This document shows, piece after piece, positions 1,229 through 10,057 of a stretch of 15,220 nucleotides of DNA. Each line of letters begins with the position of its first letter. The stretch's first letter is position 1. Source of the stretch: Bacillota bacterium (lineage in GTDB: Bacteria; Bacillota_C; Negativicutes; JAEYSJ01); the NCBI GenBank assembly GCA_023434855.1, contig JAEYSJ010000348.1, forward strand, positions 1 through 15,220. The letters run 5' to 3'. The position numbers were made by a program, and so were the translations under genes. The notes under the pieces were generated by a model. That model was given only the letters and a program-made list of their open reading frames with translations. It was not told the DNA's origin and did not search any database.

Positions 1229-2959
1229 TTAGAAGTACCGTATGCCGGTCAGCCACCACCGGCCGTGTTTGTTAGAAGTCTCCGTCGCATCCGCGCTGGA
1301 AGACAACTTCCAGGCGTAATCGACCCGAATGCTGTACTTTTTCTGGCCGTTTAAGATAAGACCCAATCCCGCGCCGCTGAGGGTCCGGGAAGAATCGCCG
1401 TCTGCATAGCTGTTTTTACTGCCGTCGACGTAGCCGCAATCAATAAACGCCGCCAGTTGGAATTTTGGGGTCGGCAGATTATAGCGCAGTTCCCCGGTAA
1501 AGATATAACCATCGTCGCCGGGAGCCTCACCCTGGGCATAGGCCCGTACGCCATTGCCCCCGCCGAGATAAAGTTTTCCCGATGAATCAAGGTTCTTGCT
1601 GGCCAGCTGGCCGGTAAGCGACAGATAGAAGTTCAACCGGTCATTCAAGCGCTGCAGCCGATTGAATGAAAAGTTTGCTTTAGTGTAACGACCGGCGGTC
1701 TGTGCCCCCTGGGCGTCGTTACTCTCCCACGAGTTGCCGGTTGGATCATCACCACCGGTAAAATTAAGCCGGCCGTTCTCTACATTCAGAGCAAAAACGT
1801 TCACGCTGCGGCTGTCCCGACTGACACCGTTCAGGCCTAAGGTCACAAAATTGGCTTTCCGCCGGTCAGAGGAATCGAACAGGTCAATATCGTCAACAAG
1901 CCGGCGAGTAGATACGCCGATCTGAGCATAGAGGTCATAATTGCGGGAGCGGACAATTGGGTACTGCCCGAAGATACCCACAGTTTCGCTAGTGCCGTGG
2001 GCCGAAAGGAGCGAATATTCCTGTTGAAGGGTGTAGTTGAGACGCGAATAATTCACTCCCAGCCGCCAGCCCTGGCTGCCATAGGGCACTATGTAATTCA
2101 TGCTGAAATTGTCCATACCGCCGCCGGTATTACTGTAGCTTAAGTTCAACACGTCCCCTAGGCCACTGGCGTCATTGAAGTTGAGGTTCAGGTTGCCTGG
2201 GTCCGAACCGGTGTAGCGGTTGCCATAATTGTTCATTGATAAATCCCCGGTTAATAGGTCGGCGTTATTGATATCGACAATAAGTTCAGTAGTGCCGGCG
2301 GTCTTGCCCGGAGCCAAAACGGCTTTGATGCTGATCCCGCCGGTATCACTTAGAAGGAGCAACGTGCGTTCCAGTACGTTCCGTTTCACATAGTCACCAC
2401 TCTTGATGTTGCGTAAAAATCTGGCGGCAGCCGCATTGGACAGCTTAGAGTGGTTGCGGATATCAACCCCACTGTACTTTCCCGGCATTATAGCAATTTC
2501 CACTATGCCGTCCACGGTCTCCTGAGCCGGAACATAGGCCTTGGCCACCACAAAGCCCTGATCACGAAAATACTTGGCAACGCGCCCGGCGACGTCTTTC
2601 AGTTCGCCAAGGGTAAGTTCCTTACCAACCGCGTCTTTAACGAGTGCCTGCAGCTTGTCCTCTCCATATATACTCTGGCCGGTGATATGAAAACCGCTGA
2701 CTTTAATCCTGGGGCCTGCTGATGGCCCGGGTGCCACCTCTTGCTGCTGTCCGTTCTCCTCGATGCTGACATCGTTTTTTGGCTGGGCGGGAAACTGCTT
2801 TTGTTTTACACTGTCAGCTACCTGGCCGGGTATTTGATTGACGGCTTGACCGGCATTGGGTGTAGCAGCCAAAGCCGGAGAAACCGCGCCGAAAACCAGT
2901 GCTAAAGCTGGCACCAGGCAGCATACCCTGCTGCGCAGTAATGATTTGTTTCGTAGCAT
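1229..2959 (-). CDS. TpsB-family (ShlB/FhaC/HecB) outer-membrane translocator
   Basis: A 576-residue beta-barrel transporter that should export the adjacent TpsA across the outer membrane. Residues 1-31 are a signal peptide (cleavage near SPALA). A Pro/Gln-rich linker follows (about 35-80), then a POTRA_2-type domain from PRIKVSGFHITG (84) to about 160 and a second POTRA-like segment to about 232. The rest is a ShlB-type 16-strand barrel region. The conserved loop-6 motif is present as GNGVRAYAQGE (VRAY at 471-474), and the protein ends in an aromatic C-terminal strand, GIRYF. The length is normal for the family (about 550-580). The start ATG is preceded by AGAAAGGATG. Its presence is strong evidence for an outer membrane, which among Firmicutes points to Negativicutes or Halanaerobiales. 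Confidence 0.95.
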   Translation of the reverse strand: MLRNKSLLRSRVCCLVPALALVFGAVSPALAATPNAGQAVNQIPGQVADSVKQKQFPAQPKNDVSIEENGQQQEVAPGPSAGPRIKVSGFHITGQSIYGEDKLQALVKDAVGKELTLGELKDVAGRVAKYFRDQGFVVAKAYVPAQETVDGIVEIAIMPGKYSGVDIRNHSKLSNAAAARFLRNIKSGDYVKRNVLERTLLLLSDTGGISIKAVLAPGKTAGTTELIVDINNADLLTGDLSMNNYGNRYTGSDPGNLNLNFNDASGLGDVLNLSYSNTGGGMDNFSMNYIVPYGSQGWRLGVNYSRLNYTLQQEYSLLSAHGTSETVGIFGQYPIVRSRNYDLYAQIGVSTRRLVDDIDLFDSSDRRKANFVTLGLNGVSRDSRSVNVFALNVENGRLNFTGGDDPTGNSWESNDAQGAQTAGRYTKANFSFNRLQRLNDRLNFYLSLTGQLASKNLDSSGKLYLGGGNGVRAYAQGEAPGDDGYIFTGELRYNLPTPKFQLAAFIDCGYVDGSKNSYADGDSSRTLSGAGLGLILNGQKKYSIRVDYAWKLSSSADATETSNKHGRWWLTGIRYF

Positions 2960-3065
2960 AATTTCATCCTTTCTGCATTAATAAATCCAAATTAAAGAAA
3001 AGCTCTGTTTTTGCTAAAAACGATACCTCCTCTCAGCTACCCCTTTCCTAATCCGGGGCGTCTTC

Positions 3066-3141
3066 ACGGCGGCAGGAGATAGGCAGAGACCCTTACACAC
3101 GCCGTCATGTCATTTTTCGGCAATAGCTTGCCATTATCTCC
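3066..3141 (-). promoter_or_regulatory. possible structured, pseudoknotted 5' leader of tpsB
   Basis: On the minus strand upstream of tpsB two helices interleave: GGAGATA (3141-3135) with TATCTCC (3081-3075), and ACGGCG (3105-3100) with CGCCGT (3071-3066). A small hairpin, GGCAA-GCTA-TTGCC (3132-3119), sits inside. This would be an H-type pseudoknot about 110 nt before the tpsB start. A weak promoter candidate lies upstream (TTGTTT at 3204-3199, 16 bp, TATTTT at 3182-3177), which would put this region in the transcript. It does not show the conserved sequence of the c-di-GMP-I, TPP, FMN or SAM-I riboswitches. Whether it is a riboswitch, another leader structure or chance pairing is unknown. 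Confidence 0.35.
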
Positions 3142-3149
3142 CCTCTCTG

Positions 3150-3253
3150 ACTTTTGGAAGAATACCTTCCGCGTTAAAAATAAAAACCGGCGATACACAA
3201 ACAATTCACGCCGACTTTACCCAGGATGAAAATTAGCTAAATACTGTCCACAA
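3150..3253 (+). repeat. upstream block shared by sRNA copies 1 and 4 (first copy)
   Basis: About 104 bp immediately upstream of the copy 1 promoter align closely with 4139-4243 upstream of copy 4. Shared stretches include CCGCGTT...AAAATAAAA.CCGG, ACAAACAATT, ACTTTACCCAGGAT and ACTGTCCAC. Each block begins with a small hairpin whose stem changes on both sides: GGAAG/CTTCC here (3156-3160 and 3166-3170) against GGGAG/CTCCC in the other block. This marks a segmental duplication and suggests the hairpin is selected. Confidence 0.8.
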
Positions 3254-3282
3254 CTGAAAGCACTGGTTAGTCATGCTATAAG
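3254..3282 (+). promoter_or_regulatory. promoter of sRNA copy 1
   Basis: -35 CTGAAA (3254-3259), a 17-bp spacer and -10 TATAAG (3277-3282), matching a vegetative sigma-A promoter. The same layout occurs at the same distance before all five copies. Confidence 0.75.
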
Positions 3283-3288
3283 AATTGC

Positions 3289-3372
3289 AAAGCAGACCCC
3301 TCCCTGGAAGGGGCTGTTTCGGGGAAGAACACCGTAGGGCTCCGCCAAGATTCCGCGGTGTTCTTTTATTTT
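3289..3372 (+). ncRNA. tandem small RNA, copy 1 (type A)
   Basis: Predicted RNA of about 84 nt starting about 7 nt after its -10 box. From 5' to 3' it has a CU-rich hairpin (CAG-A-CCCCTCC...GAAGGGG-CTG, 3293-3316), a conserved single-stranded TTTCGGGGAA, and a terminator stem GAACACCG (3327-3334) with CGGTGTTC (3356-3363) followed by a T-run. The terminator loop carries GGCTCCGCCAAGATTCC, which is identical in all five copies. I do not recognise the family by name; the start and end are inferred from the promoter and terminator. Confidence 0.75.
3327..3372 (+). terminator. Rho-independent terminator of sRNA copy 1
   Basis: 8-bp stem GAACACCG/CGGTGTTC with a 21-nt loop, then TTTTATTTTT. Confidence 0.8.
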
Positions 3373-3491
3373 TGTATCAGAATTTATAACTTTTCGGGTG
3401 ACTGCAAGCAGTTGACCTACCCGCAGTTTGTTTCAGAAAATACGCGAACTTTTACAATAGTGGTAAAATTAGTAAAAATGCCCTTCCACCA

Positions 3492-3520
3492 TTGAAAGCA
3501 CCGATTGATCGTGTTATAAT
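3492..3520 (+). promoter_or_regulatory. promoter of sRNA copy 2
   Basis: -35 TTGAAA (3492-3497), a 17-bp spacer and a perfect -10 TATAAT (3515-3520). One of the two strongest promoters in the array. Confidence 0.8.
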
Positions 3521-3526
3521 AATTGC

Positions 3527-3610
3527 GAAGCAGACTCCTCCCAGAGAGGGGCTGTTTCGGGGAAGAACACCGTAGGGCTCCGCCAAGATTCCGCGGTGTT
3601 CTTTTATTTT
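3527..3610 (+). ncRNA. tandem small RNA, copy 2 (type A)
   Basis: Same layout as copy 1. The CU-rich arm is CTCCTCCC paired with GAGGGG. The C-to-T change in the 5' arm is tolerated as a T-G wobble. The terminator stem is GAACACCG (3565-3572) with CGGTGTTC (3594-3601), then TTTTATTTT. A TTG-initiated reading frame of 66 codons crosses this RNA (3523-3723), but it has no ribosome binding site and its start lies at the expected transcript start, so the RNA explanation is preferred. Confidence 0.78.
3565..3610 (+). terminator. Rho-independent terminator of sRNA copy 2
   Basis: 8-bp stem GAACACCG/CGGTGTTC followed by TTTTATTTT. Confidence 0.8.
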
Positions 3611-3696
3611 GCCAACATGCTTATTTGCTGCAGTTCGTCGCCAGAGATACACTGACTTTAGTAATAATCAGAAAATTAGGACAATATTGTCCAGCA

Positions 3697-3725
3697 CTGA
3701 TAGTACCGGTGAATCGTTTTTAACA
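3697..3725 (+). promoter_or_regulatory. weak or decayed promoter of sRNA copy 3
   Basis: -35 CTGATA (3697-3702), a 17-bp spacer and -10 TTAACA (3720-3725). The spacing is kept but both hexamers are poor, so this copy may be weakly expressed or need an activator. Confidence 0.45.
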
Positions 3726-3731
3726 ATAGAA

Positions 3732-3812
3732 AAGCAGACTCCTCCCCAGGATAGCTGTTTCGGGTAGAACACCTTAGGGCTCCGCCAAGATTCCATAGTG
3801 TTCTTTTGTTTT
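3732..3812 (+). ncRNA. tandem small RNA, copy 3 (type B, possibly decaying)
   Basis: A type B copy resembling copy 5. The first hairpin becomes TCCT (3740-3743), a pure CCCC loop (3744-3747) and AGGA (3748-3751), framed by CAG/CTG. The terminator stem is shortened to GAACAC (3767-3772) with GTGTTC (3798-3803), with mismatches above it, then TTTTGTTTT. The loop GGCTCCGCCAAGATTCC is still intact. Weak promoter boxes and a broken stem suggest partial degeneration. Confidence 0.55.
3767..3812 (+). terminator. shortened terminator of sRNA copy 3
   Basis: 6-bp stem GAACAC/GTGTTC followed by TTTTGTTTT; weaker than in the other copies. Confidence 0.55.
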
Positions 3813-4138
3813 ACCAATATGTTTATTAGCTGCAGTTTGTCTTCAAGGGATAATAGTTAGGTTCAGTATCGGCAAAAATTTAAAATATCCCTTCATTGTT
3901 TCTTATTATCTCGTGAAAATTATAACTAATATAATATGTTTTCATCCAAGATATAATAGTTTATATTGTTTTTGTTAGCAATCCGTTGTATTATCTTGGA
4001 AAATTCTATTAATAATAATGGAATTCCTGCGTTATTTTGTAATTTATTTCATTGTATATTGTATTTTATTCAGTTATGATAGTAATTAATTTAACACATC
4101 TTGCAAATATAAACTTTATCTTATTGTAAAATACGCAA
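3813..4138. other. AT-rich spacer splitting the sRNA array
   Basis: The first ~75 nt resemble the inter-copy spacer (TGTTTATTAGCTGCAGTTTGTC). From about 3890 to 4138 the sequence is very AT-rich, with no convincing reading frame or transposase remnant. One inverted repeat is visible: CCAAGATA (3946-3953) with TATCTTGG (3992-3999), 38 nt apart. It has no clear terminal repeats or target duplication, so I cannot call it an insertion element. Confidence 0.6.
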
Positions 4139-4243
4139 ACTTTGGGAGTATCTCTCCCGCGTTTAAAATAAAAGCCGGAAATTACAAACAATTACACGCC
4201 AACTTTACCCAGGATAAGAAAATTAGGTAAACACTGTCCACCA
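4139..4243 (+). repeat. upstream block shared by sRNA copies 1 and 4 (second copy)
   Basis: Diverged duplicate of 3150-3253. Its opening hairpin is GGGAG (4144-4148)/CTCCC (4154-4158). It abuts the -35 box of copy 4 exactly as the first block abuts copy 1. Confidence 0.8.
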
Positions 4244-4272
4244 TTGAAAGCACTGGTTAGTCATGCTATAAT
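4244..4272 (+). promoter_or_regulatory. promoter of sRNA copy 4
   Basis: -35 TTGAAA (4244-4249), a 17-bp spacer and -10 TATAAT (4267-4272). As strong as that of copy 2. Confidence 0.8.
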
Positions 4273-4278
4273 AATTGC

Positions 4279-4362
4279 GAAGCAGACCCCTCCCTAGGAG
4301 GGGCTGTTTCGGGGAAGAACACCGTAGGGCTCCGCCAAGATTCCGCGGTGTTCTTTTATTTT
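4279..4362 (+). ncRNA. tandem small RNA, copy 4 (type A)
   Basis: The clearest type A copy. It has a perfect 7-bp hairpin CCCCTCC (4287-4293)/GGAGGGG (4297-4303) with CAG/CTG below it. The conserved TTTCGGGGAAGAACACCG follows, then terminator stem GAACACCG (4317-4324)/CGGTGTTC (4346-4353) and a T-run. The invariant 17-nt loop is present. A TTG reading frame at 4275-4463 overlaps it but lacks a ribosome binding site. Confidence 0.78.
4317..4362 (+). terminator. Rho-independent terminator of sRNA copy 4
   Basis: 8-bp stem GAACACCG/CGGTGTTC followed by TTTTATTTT. Confidence 0.8.
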
Positions 4363-4446
4363 GTCAACGTGTTTATTTACTGCAGTTTGTCTCAGGAGAT
4401 GCGCCATCTTTTGCCAGAATAAGAAAATCAGGCAGATATTGTACCA

Positions 4447-4475
4447 TTGGAACCATCGGTTAGTCGTGCTATAAC
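4447..4475 (+). promoter_or_regulatory. promoter of sRNA copy 5
   Basis: -35 TTGGAA (4447-4452), a 17-bp spacer and -10 TATAAC (4470-4475). Intermediate in quality. Confidence 0.65.
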
Positions 4476-4481
4476 AATAGC

Positions 4482-4564
4482 AAAGCAGACTCCTCCCCCA
4501 GGATAGCTGTTTCGGGTAGAACACCATAAGGCTCCGCCAAGATTCCATGGTGTTCTTTTGCTTT
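4482..4564 (+). ncRNA. tandem small RNA, copy 5 (type B)
   Basis: The intact type B copy. The first hairpin is TCCT (4491-4494), CCCCC loop (4495-4499), AGGA (4500-4503), inside CAG/CTG. The terminator stem is GAACACCAT (4519-4527) with ATGGTGTTC (4547-4555). Relative to copies 1, 2 and 4 both strands of the upper stem have changed, so pairing is kept. The loop again contains GGCTCCGCCAAGATTCC. A frame-breaking length difference from type A argues against a protein product. Confidence 0.72.
4519..4564 (+). terminator. Rho-independent terminator of sRNA copy 5
   Basis: 9-bp stem GAACACCAT/ATGGTGTTC followed by TTTTGCTTTG. Confidence 0.75.
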
Positions 4565-4581
4565 GTTAATCGACGTAAACC

Positions 4582-4623
4582 AACAATAATACACTATTAC
4601 ATTATAGTGTATTATTGTTTTTT
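4582..4623. terminator. 16-bp AT-rich hairpin after the sRNA array
   Basis: Perfect stem AACAATAATACACTAT (4582-4597) with its complement (4604-4619), loop TACATT, then further T's. It looks like a strong backstop terminator for plus-strand transcription leaving the array. The AT-rich palindrome could alternatively be a small repeat element. Confidence 0.6.
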
Positions 4624-4802: not shown

Positions 4803-5351
4803 TTAAATTATATTATTTCCCAATGCTTCAGCTCTCTTTAGTCCGTCCGTCTTCAGAACATCATCTTTATCATGAAGACCTGGCACAATGATTACGCCAC
4901 TATCCTGCCAATTCAGAAATTCAGCAATTAGTTTATAGGATTTAACAATACCTTCGAATTTTGTTTCATCGTTCGCACCGCCGCTGACTAGCAGCGCACA
5001 TTCTTTTATCCTCAATGTCTTTTGCGAAATAAAATAAGAATAGAACTTGTCAATAGCTGCTTTCAGCTGTGCGGGAAACGAGAACCAGTACATCGGTGTT
5101 GCGAATACAACCATGTCGGCTTGTTCCAGCAGCGGCGCAAGTTCATTAAAATCGTCAGGAACAGAACAAGCGGTCCCCGTTTTGAAACATGTCTGACAAT
5201 CAATACATCCTTTAATGCTTTTATCTGAAGTTGTATATTTTACCGTTGTATGTCCCGCCTGCCGGGCGCCGGCAATAAATGCATCTGCCAGCTTGTCGGT
5301 ATTGCCGCCTTTTCTGGGGCTGCCTGTTAAAACAAGTATATTCTTTGACAA
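4803..5351 (-). CDS. iron-sulfur-flavoprotein-like NAD(P)H-dependent FMN reductase
   Basis: 182-residue flavodoxin-fold protein. The FMN phosphate loop is TGSPRKGGNT (9-18). The motif ATPMYWFSFPAQLKAAIDK (84-102) is typical of the NADPH-dependent FMN reductase family. Cysteines 49, 52, 55 and 62 form a C-x2-C-x2-C-x6-C motif, which fits the compact cluster motif of the archaeal/clostridial iron-sulfur flavoprotein (Isf) group, so a [4Fe-4S] cluster is likely. The start is TTG: AAGGAGG lies 9 nt upstream, and the codon just before it is TAG, so no earlier start is possible. It is the last gene of a three-gene minus-strand group. Physiological substrate unknown; quinone, O2 or disulfide reduction are typical for such proteins. 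Confidence 0.85.
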   Translation of the reverse strand: MSKNILVLTGSPRKGGNTDKLADAFIAGARQAGHTTVKYTTSDKSIKGCIDCQTCFKTGTACSVPDDFNELAPLLEQADMVVFATPMYWFSFPAQLKAAIDKFYSYFISQKTLRIKECALLVSGGANDETKFEGIVKSYKLIAEFLNWQDSGVIIVPGLHDKDDVLKTDGLKRAEALGNNII

Positions 5352-9937: not shown

Positions 9938-9943
9938 GTAATC

Positions 9944-10014
9944 GGCGGAAAAGGGGGACGGAACTCTAGCACTTGCGCTAGATGGCAGCGAAATTCCGTC
10001 CCCCCTTTTCCGCC
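9944..10014. repeat. long hairpin element (REP/MITE-like)
   Basis: 20-nt arm GGCGGAAAAGGGGGACGGAA (9944-9963) pairs with 9994-10014, which has one extra C as a bulge. Inside lies a second hairpin TCTAGC (9965-9970)/GCTAGA (9977-9982). The GGGGGACGGAA...TTCCGTCCCCC type of arm is familiar as a dispersed palindromic repeat in anaerobic Firmicutes, sometimes linked to REP-associated transposases; that link is from memory and unproven here. It could also act as a terminator for the aldo/keto reductase operon on the minus strand, but it lacks a T-run. Confidence 0.65.
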
Positions 10015-10057
10015 AGGCCAGCTAAATTGTGATATATTTTTTTAGCGTGTTCAAAAC

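Follow-up and report, generated by a model that had tools for sequence, protein, structure and literature searches.

Small RNAs of the MicF type are encoded divergent from porin genes, FinP takes a two-hairpin form, and Inc carries the loop pair UUGGCG/CGCCAA. The LhrC RNAs of Listeria depend on the two-component system LisRK. According to the available text of PMC4132741, the hairpin loop and the terminator loop of LhrC both bind the target, and the authors infer that the copies act additively. The original prediction had named LhrC as a parallel for tandem multicopy RNAs, and is to be corrected in that the same text counts lhrC1-4 as a single locus and places lhrC5 at a separate one. FinP pairs with a leader following a loop-loop contact, as stated in the accessible part of PMC9977716.

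The window (the whole stretch of DNA that was analysed, 15,220 nucleotides) contains at 3254-4564 five direct repeats, arranged head-to-tail on the plus strand between tpsB and a flavodoxin-like gene (4803-5351, named by eye), both on the minus strand (Table 1). Each unit follows the plan that had been predicted, with a promoter, a C-rich hairpin, a linker, a terminator hairpin and a run of Ts, giving a predicted RNA of about 80 nt, and the repetition is far beyond chance (a 206-nt family in three copies and an 80-nt family in five). The linker and the T-run were present in all five units, and the linker, described before as TTTCGGG, is conserved only as TTTC(G)GGG, with one base lost in copies 3 and 5. 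The -35 and -10 elements are 17 nt apart in every copy, as claimed. A strict sigma-70 scan was passed by copies 2 and 4 only, with 11 of 12 bases and an extended TG, and copies 1 and 5 were judged by eye to be close to this 11/12 extended -10 type. The -10 of copy 3 (TTAACA) does not look convincing as a promoter element.

Table 1. Features of the array and of its neighbour gene in the window; promoters and RNAs are predicted, and R3 is the covariance model described in the text.
Feature	Position	Strand	Remarks
tpsB, ShlB/FhaC-type outer-membrane transporter	1229..2959	-	Pfam POTRA_2 and ShlB; divergent from the array
Upstream block	3153..3232	+	75% match to 4141-4220
Copy 1 promoter	3254..3282	+	CTGAAA 3254-3259, -10 TATAAG 3277-3282, TG extension; read from sequence, absent from strict sigma-70 scan
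Copy 1 small RNA, alpha	3289..3370	+	fold z -2.8; R3 37.8 bits
Copy 1 parts	hairpin 1 about 3288-3321; terminator hairpin about 3323-3367; invariant loop region 3338-3354	+	
Copy 2 promoter	3492..3520	+	TTGAAA 3492, 17 nt, TATAAT 3515; strict sigma-70 scan
Copy 2 small RNA, alpha	3527..3608	+	invariant loop region 3576-3592; fold z -4.8; R3 32.2 bits
Copy 3 promoter, decayed	3697..3725	+	CTGATA 3697, TTAACA 3720; read from sequence, absent from strict scan
Copy 3 small RNA, beta	3732..3811	+	invariant loop region 3778-3794; fold z -0.5; R3 15.5 bits
Upstream block, second copy, before copy 4	4141..4220	+	75% match to 3153-3232
Copy 4 promoter	4244..4272	+	TTGAAA 4244, 17 nt, TATAAT 4267; strict sigma-70 scan
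Copy 4 small RNA, alpha	4279..4360	+	fold z -6.1, best folder; R3 37.2 bits
Copy 4 parts	hairpin 1 4278-4311; terminator 4313-4357; invariant loop region 4328-4344	+	
Copy 5 promoter	4447..4475	+	TTGGAA 4447, TATAAC 4470; read from sequence, absent from strict scan
Copy 5 small RNA, beta	4482..4563	+	invariant loop region 4530-4546; fold z -1.9; R3 29.3 bits

The Pfam matches of the tpsB product bear out the predicted position next to a two-partner secretion gene, and its closest named relatives, among the best 120 of 1493, were from a Negativicutes MAG (72%) and Sporomusa termitida (70%). The window was taken to be a metagenomic contig from a Sporomusa-like Negativicute. The tpsB leader (2960-3260, minus strand) is similar to the leader at the S. 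termitida-like locus G693, carries AGGAGG about 70 nt ahead of the start codon, and is possibly a structured leader. Between copies 3 and 4 the region 3800-4199 is AT-rich (GC 0.20-0.27), and a palindrome, ACAATAATACACTAT...ATAGTGTATTATTGT, lies at 4583-4618 directly past copy 5. Another palindrome, GGACAATATTGTCC, precedes the copy 3 promoter. Both GAAAATTAG and an element resembling GGNNAAYAYTGTCC were seen by eye ahead of the promoters (3679-3692, 4226-4242 and corresponding positions ahead of the others), and these recurring elements are a possible regulator site. A CodY-like box upstream of copy 3 was dropped by eye, the other copies having a half-site only.

The RNA body is 81-96% identical across all 10 copy pairs. 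Identity in the upstream flank (-135 to -46) amounts to 39-46% in 8 of these pairs and to 75% in the pairs 1/4 and 3/5, which indicates a block duplication within the array. This visible duplication, together with the result that covariance models found no close copy of the array RNAs in 380 genomes of the class, would suit a recently amplified DNA repeat without RNA function. Such a repeat is nevertheless very unlikely, since within the units the transcript is the most conserved part and the promoter the second, the order of promoter, transcript and terminator is fixed, and compensatory changes occur across the relatives described below.

Two types of RNA could be distinguished, alpha (copies 1, 2 and 4) and beta (copies 3 and 5). 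UCCC is found in hairpin 1 of all five, and the C-rich motif of this hairpin was predicted to be mostly paired in copies 2 and 4 and partly open in copies 1, 3 and 5. All five copies share the terminator loop region GGCUCCGCCAAGAUUCC without change, and unpaired probabilities predicted its centre to be open in copies 1-4 and partly open in copy 5. In copy 3 some pairs of the terminator stem do not form in the pair count, and from this mismatched stem and the poor -10 it is probably a decaying RNA gene, the other four being intact-looking; the five small-RNA genes first proposed would hence be four, plus a decayed one. The terminator covariation on which the original prediction leaned is real but small, with both partners altered in 2 of 31 pairs and this number attained in 62 of 500 shuffles, so that changes in the array are no proof of selection on RNA by themselves, and covariation across relatives is the better evidence.

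Although short open frames are present, small protein genes or toxin-antitoxin units are a scarcely credible reading of the array. By eye, no ribosome binding site was seen, in agreement with the prediction, no ATG lies within the alpha transcripts, and the ATG of copy 5 lies in the terminator stem. The shared frame is broken by indels in two copies, also as predicted: copies 3 and 5 are each one linker base short, and copy 3 is one further base short.

No named family had been recognised for these RNAs, and the Rfam search of the window agreed, giving three matches at E up to 1, none of which reached the threshold. One, taken as chance, was to the promoter hairpin of a plant virus and fell within copy 4 on the minus strand (E 0.91). 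The other two were to miRNA families at 9938-10019, between larC and an aldo-keto reductase gene, and probably mark a mere hairpin. Blastn of the array gave no match against plasmids and phages, and only short matches in 31 of 36 genomes (best E 0.06). A 17-mer scan of named genomes returned 24 stretches, none titled Negativicutes; an early covariance model, R1, whose structure was one column off, matched in full length only at L026 (16.8 bits) and at a second L025 place (12.6 bits), and in the remaining stretches matched the loop part alone. The 17-mer had two matches in viral sequences, identical to each other, and a shorter pattern was found in 0 of 12 genomes of the family of G689. Weak R1 matches numbered 11 in 380 genomes and 23 in 40 genomes, and R2, the model replacing it, gave 7 and at least 21, respectively. 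Seven R1/R2 matches were inspected and the rest are known from lists or, for some, alignments; L031 and L036 appear coding by eye, L072, L073, L143 and L033 are intergenic stretches resembling terminators, and L142 was the one inspected match taken forward as a lead.

The covariance-model scan of class genomes that the original prediction had suggested led to a relative in G697 and then to others. R2 gave one stand-out match in 40 genomes, that of G697 (31 bits, E 2.6e-4; next 27.1 bits), with TGCTATACT, a feature outside the R2 model, just upstream; in the run on 380 genomes with stricter filters this match was not reported. When the G697 locus was compared by blastn with 28 genomes of its order, 5 matched, G697 included, and full copies at 76-80% were found in the other four (G684, G688, G689 and G693), with a tandem pair and one truncated copy in G684. 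Rfam gave no known family for six loci of the relatives.

A further model, R3, was built from six copies outside the window, among them that of G697, which had been found via the window model. The five copies of the array were its five best matches on the window (37.8, 37.2, 32.2, 29.3 and 15.5 bits), copy 3 coming hardly above a minus-strand chance match at 14.7 bits. On 80 genomes R3 gave 11 matches of at least 39 bits in 8 genomes (6 being training sequences and 5 new) and the next best at 25.9 bits, so four window copies (29.3-37.8 bits) lie above the genome gap and copy 3 does not. The family is patchy, with 72 of the 80 genomes having no match of at least 39 bits. By nhmmer with five members unpicked by window models, the same four copies outranked 200 random windows (E 0.046, 0.078, 0.14 and 3.3, best random 13), only with the -10 included, and these values are rough, as are all E-values of purpose-built models. 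With the transcript only and without G697 the window signal vanished, and with G697 kept only copy 1 (E 0.19) and copy 4 (E 3.2) came above the best random window.

Both partners vary at 16 of the 21 base pairs in a set of 14 distinct sequences, compared with 7.5 pairs after shuffling and no more than 8 in slid versions. The alignment (16 rows, 14 distinct, copy 3 left out as below the cut) was fitted to the model and leans to structure. Two-sided change cells were 42 against a shuffle mean of 13.2, and 0 of 500 shuffles reached 42. The extended -10 of the family, TGCTATA, followed by the start ATAGCAARGYAGAC, is fitted by copy 5, and copies 1, 2 and 4 are off by 1-3 bases and copy 3 by more; the terminator loop of the family, AACUCUUGGUCGGGG, is absent in the window, whose loop CUCCGCCAAGAU is close to its reverse complement. 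From the R3 ranking and gap and the weaker nhmmer test taken together, the window RNAs are very likely homologous to a porin-linked family of Sporomusa and Methylomusa. Separate small-RNA genes, as claimed, are the best fit. Relatives elsewhere have the same plan and stronger covariation, and with high confidence the units are predicted to be real small-RNA genes.

A gene for a 460-466 aa SLH-domain protein (Pfam SLH) lies divergent to the RNA gene in G684, G688, G689 and G693; we take this protein to be OmpM-like, with the barrel part read by eye. OmpM is described as tether and channel in the available part of PMC10628300. Nitrogenase-type, radical-SAM, ABC or cysteine-synthesis genes surround these porin-linked copies (some by Pfam, others by eye). 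The array neighbour tpsB is again an outer-membrane protein gene. Further copies were found among phage genes (G697 copy one; Pfam Rha and HTH_17, tail-type proteins by eye), near a TraD-like gene (G697 copy two), near a T4SS protein (G472), near TrbC and ParA-type genes (G703) and near a phage antirepressor (G483). Some members thus lie among conjugation or phage genes, and the nearest 5'-side open frame is divergent in 8 of 9 loci outside the window (by eye, the truncated G684 copy left out; four of the eight are the same porin locus), as would be expected if the RNAs exerted cis-antisense or kissing-loop control, FinP/Inc-like, on the leader of the oppositely directed neighbour gene. This control is unlikely for the array, whose start is separated from tpsB by about 330 nt and which lies antisense to no known leader; moreover, the G703 copy comes after a gene on its own strand, and a run of five such copies would be strange.

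Blastn of the G697 copy against a phage collection, and of the porin-linked G688 copy against phages and plasmids, gave no match, and a 26-mer from G697 had no viral match. AAGCAGACYCCTCCC occurs in 34 viral loci and TAGCAAGGYAGACCYC in 18, and R3 had no match at E 0.1 in any of these; on 54 viral loci (424 kb) this level was passed only by two loop carriers. The viral contigs L232 (2006-2080) and L233 (11060-11185), whose genes by eye include integrase- and replication-like ones, carry an 18-nt loop, GCTTAACTCTTGGTCGGG, in a different terminator stem. Convergent to the porin-linked RNA gene (L199/L203, L200, L201, L202 and L204) lies a second conserved hairpin, AGCTGGAGGCTGT...ACAGCC, which also accompanies the truncated copy of G684, close to two tRNA genes.

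The relatives have the terminator loop CUCUUGGUCGGGG or, in part of them, CUCUUGGCGGGG, which comes close to the window loop read as its reverse complement; an inversion of the hairpin or a pairing between the two types could account for this. The loop duplex equalled or surpassed 95% of shuffles in 8 of 11 cases when the loop of the relative was shuffled and in 6 of 11 when the window loop was shuffled (strongest -23.1 kcal/mol), where the 11 include one truncated copy and one weak match and the tests are not independent because the loops are related. It is conceivable, though quite improbable, that the array RNAs pair through this loop with the sister type as a sponge or anti-small-RNA, given that the loops of G472, G483 and G697b fail the relative-loop shuffle test, that reverse-complement alignment was below 0.05 in only 5 of 11 related loops, and that hairpin inversion yields the same loop pattern. 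An equally doubtful extension is a family split into UUGGUCG-loop RNAs, found next to porin-like genes and carried by phages and conjugative elements, and CGCCAA-loop RNAs amplified in the array as a chromosomal sponge. If true, the array would silence element-borne or porin-linked sister RNAs, and the outer membrane of diderm Firmicutes would be contested at the level of RNA.

The preferred reading, moderately probable as a whole, is that the five units are small-RNA genes, copy 3 decaying, of an undescribed base-pairing family of Sporomusa-like Negativicutes. The conserved transcript, the structure, the relatives and their contexts were obtained by computation; transcription, pairing mode and targets are inferred. 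For each unit, a sigma-70-type promoter and an intrinsic terminator of its own would delimit a two-hairpin RNA of about 80 nt. Base-pairing regulators, the probable role, are proposed here because the hairpin and terminator loops of LhrC bind the target and its copies are taken by the authors to act additively. The C-rich 5' hairpin (UCCC) could pair with ribosome-binding sites and the invariant terminator loop could be a second pairing site on other RNAs, while several copies may provide a higher dose and separate control, as argued for LhrC. Envelope or outer-membrane targets are suggested tentatively: porin leaders scored no better than control genes, and no target in the window was supported (best of 84 probe-gene comparisons, background fraction 0.006). 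A covarying family beside OmpM-like genes and on mobile elements would open a way to study how RNA controls the outer membrane in two-membrane Firmicutes, and it could be tested in named strains, since members occur in S. termitida- and Methylomusa-like genomes. In the open-licence literature searched, no paper on small regulatory RNAs of Sporomusa or Negativicutes was found by title or abstract, and no mention of UUGGCG was found.

Compared with the described systems, the array and its relatives resemble MicF-type RNAs in being placed divergent from an outer-membrane protein gene, and differ in that no target pairing was supported for the array RNAs, the sequence relation being compared through Rfam only. 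The likeness to FinP and Inc of conjugative plasmids is that some relatives lie among conjugation genes; Antisense RNAs of the FinP and Inc kind are defined by full complementarity to a target leader on the same element, and the divergent layout is what was seen here. LhrC1-5 of Listeria monocytogenes belong to a different bacterial lineage, and the array was not matched by the LhrC model of Rfam (not among the three matches at E up to 1). UCCC of LhrC lies in loop A, the single-stranded stretch and the terminator loop, whereas in the array it occurs once per copy, in hairpin 1 only, with none in the linker and UCCG in the terminator loop. As far as the available text of PMC4132741 describes LhrC, it shares with the array multicopy near-identical RNAs with their own promoters, two stem-loops and C-rich UCCC sites, and the LhrC terminator loop joins in target binding. 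The relatives next to porin-like genes and among phage and plasmid-transfer genes in related bacteria point to an undescribed RNA family.
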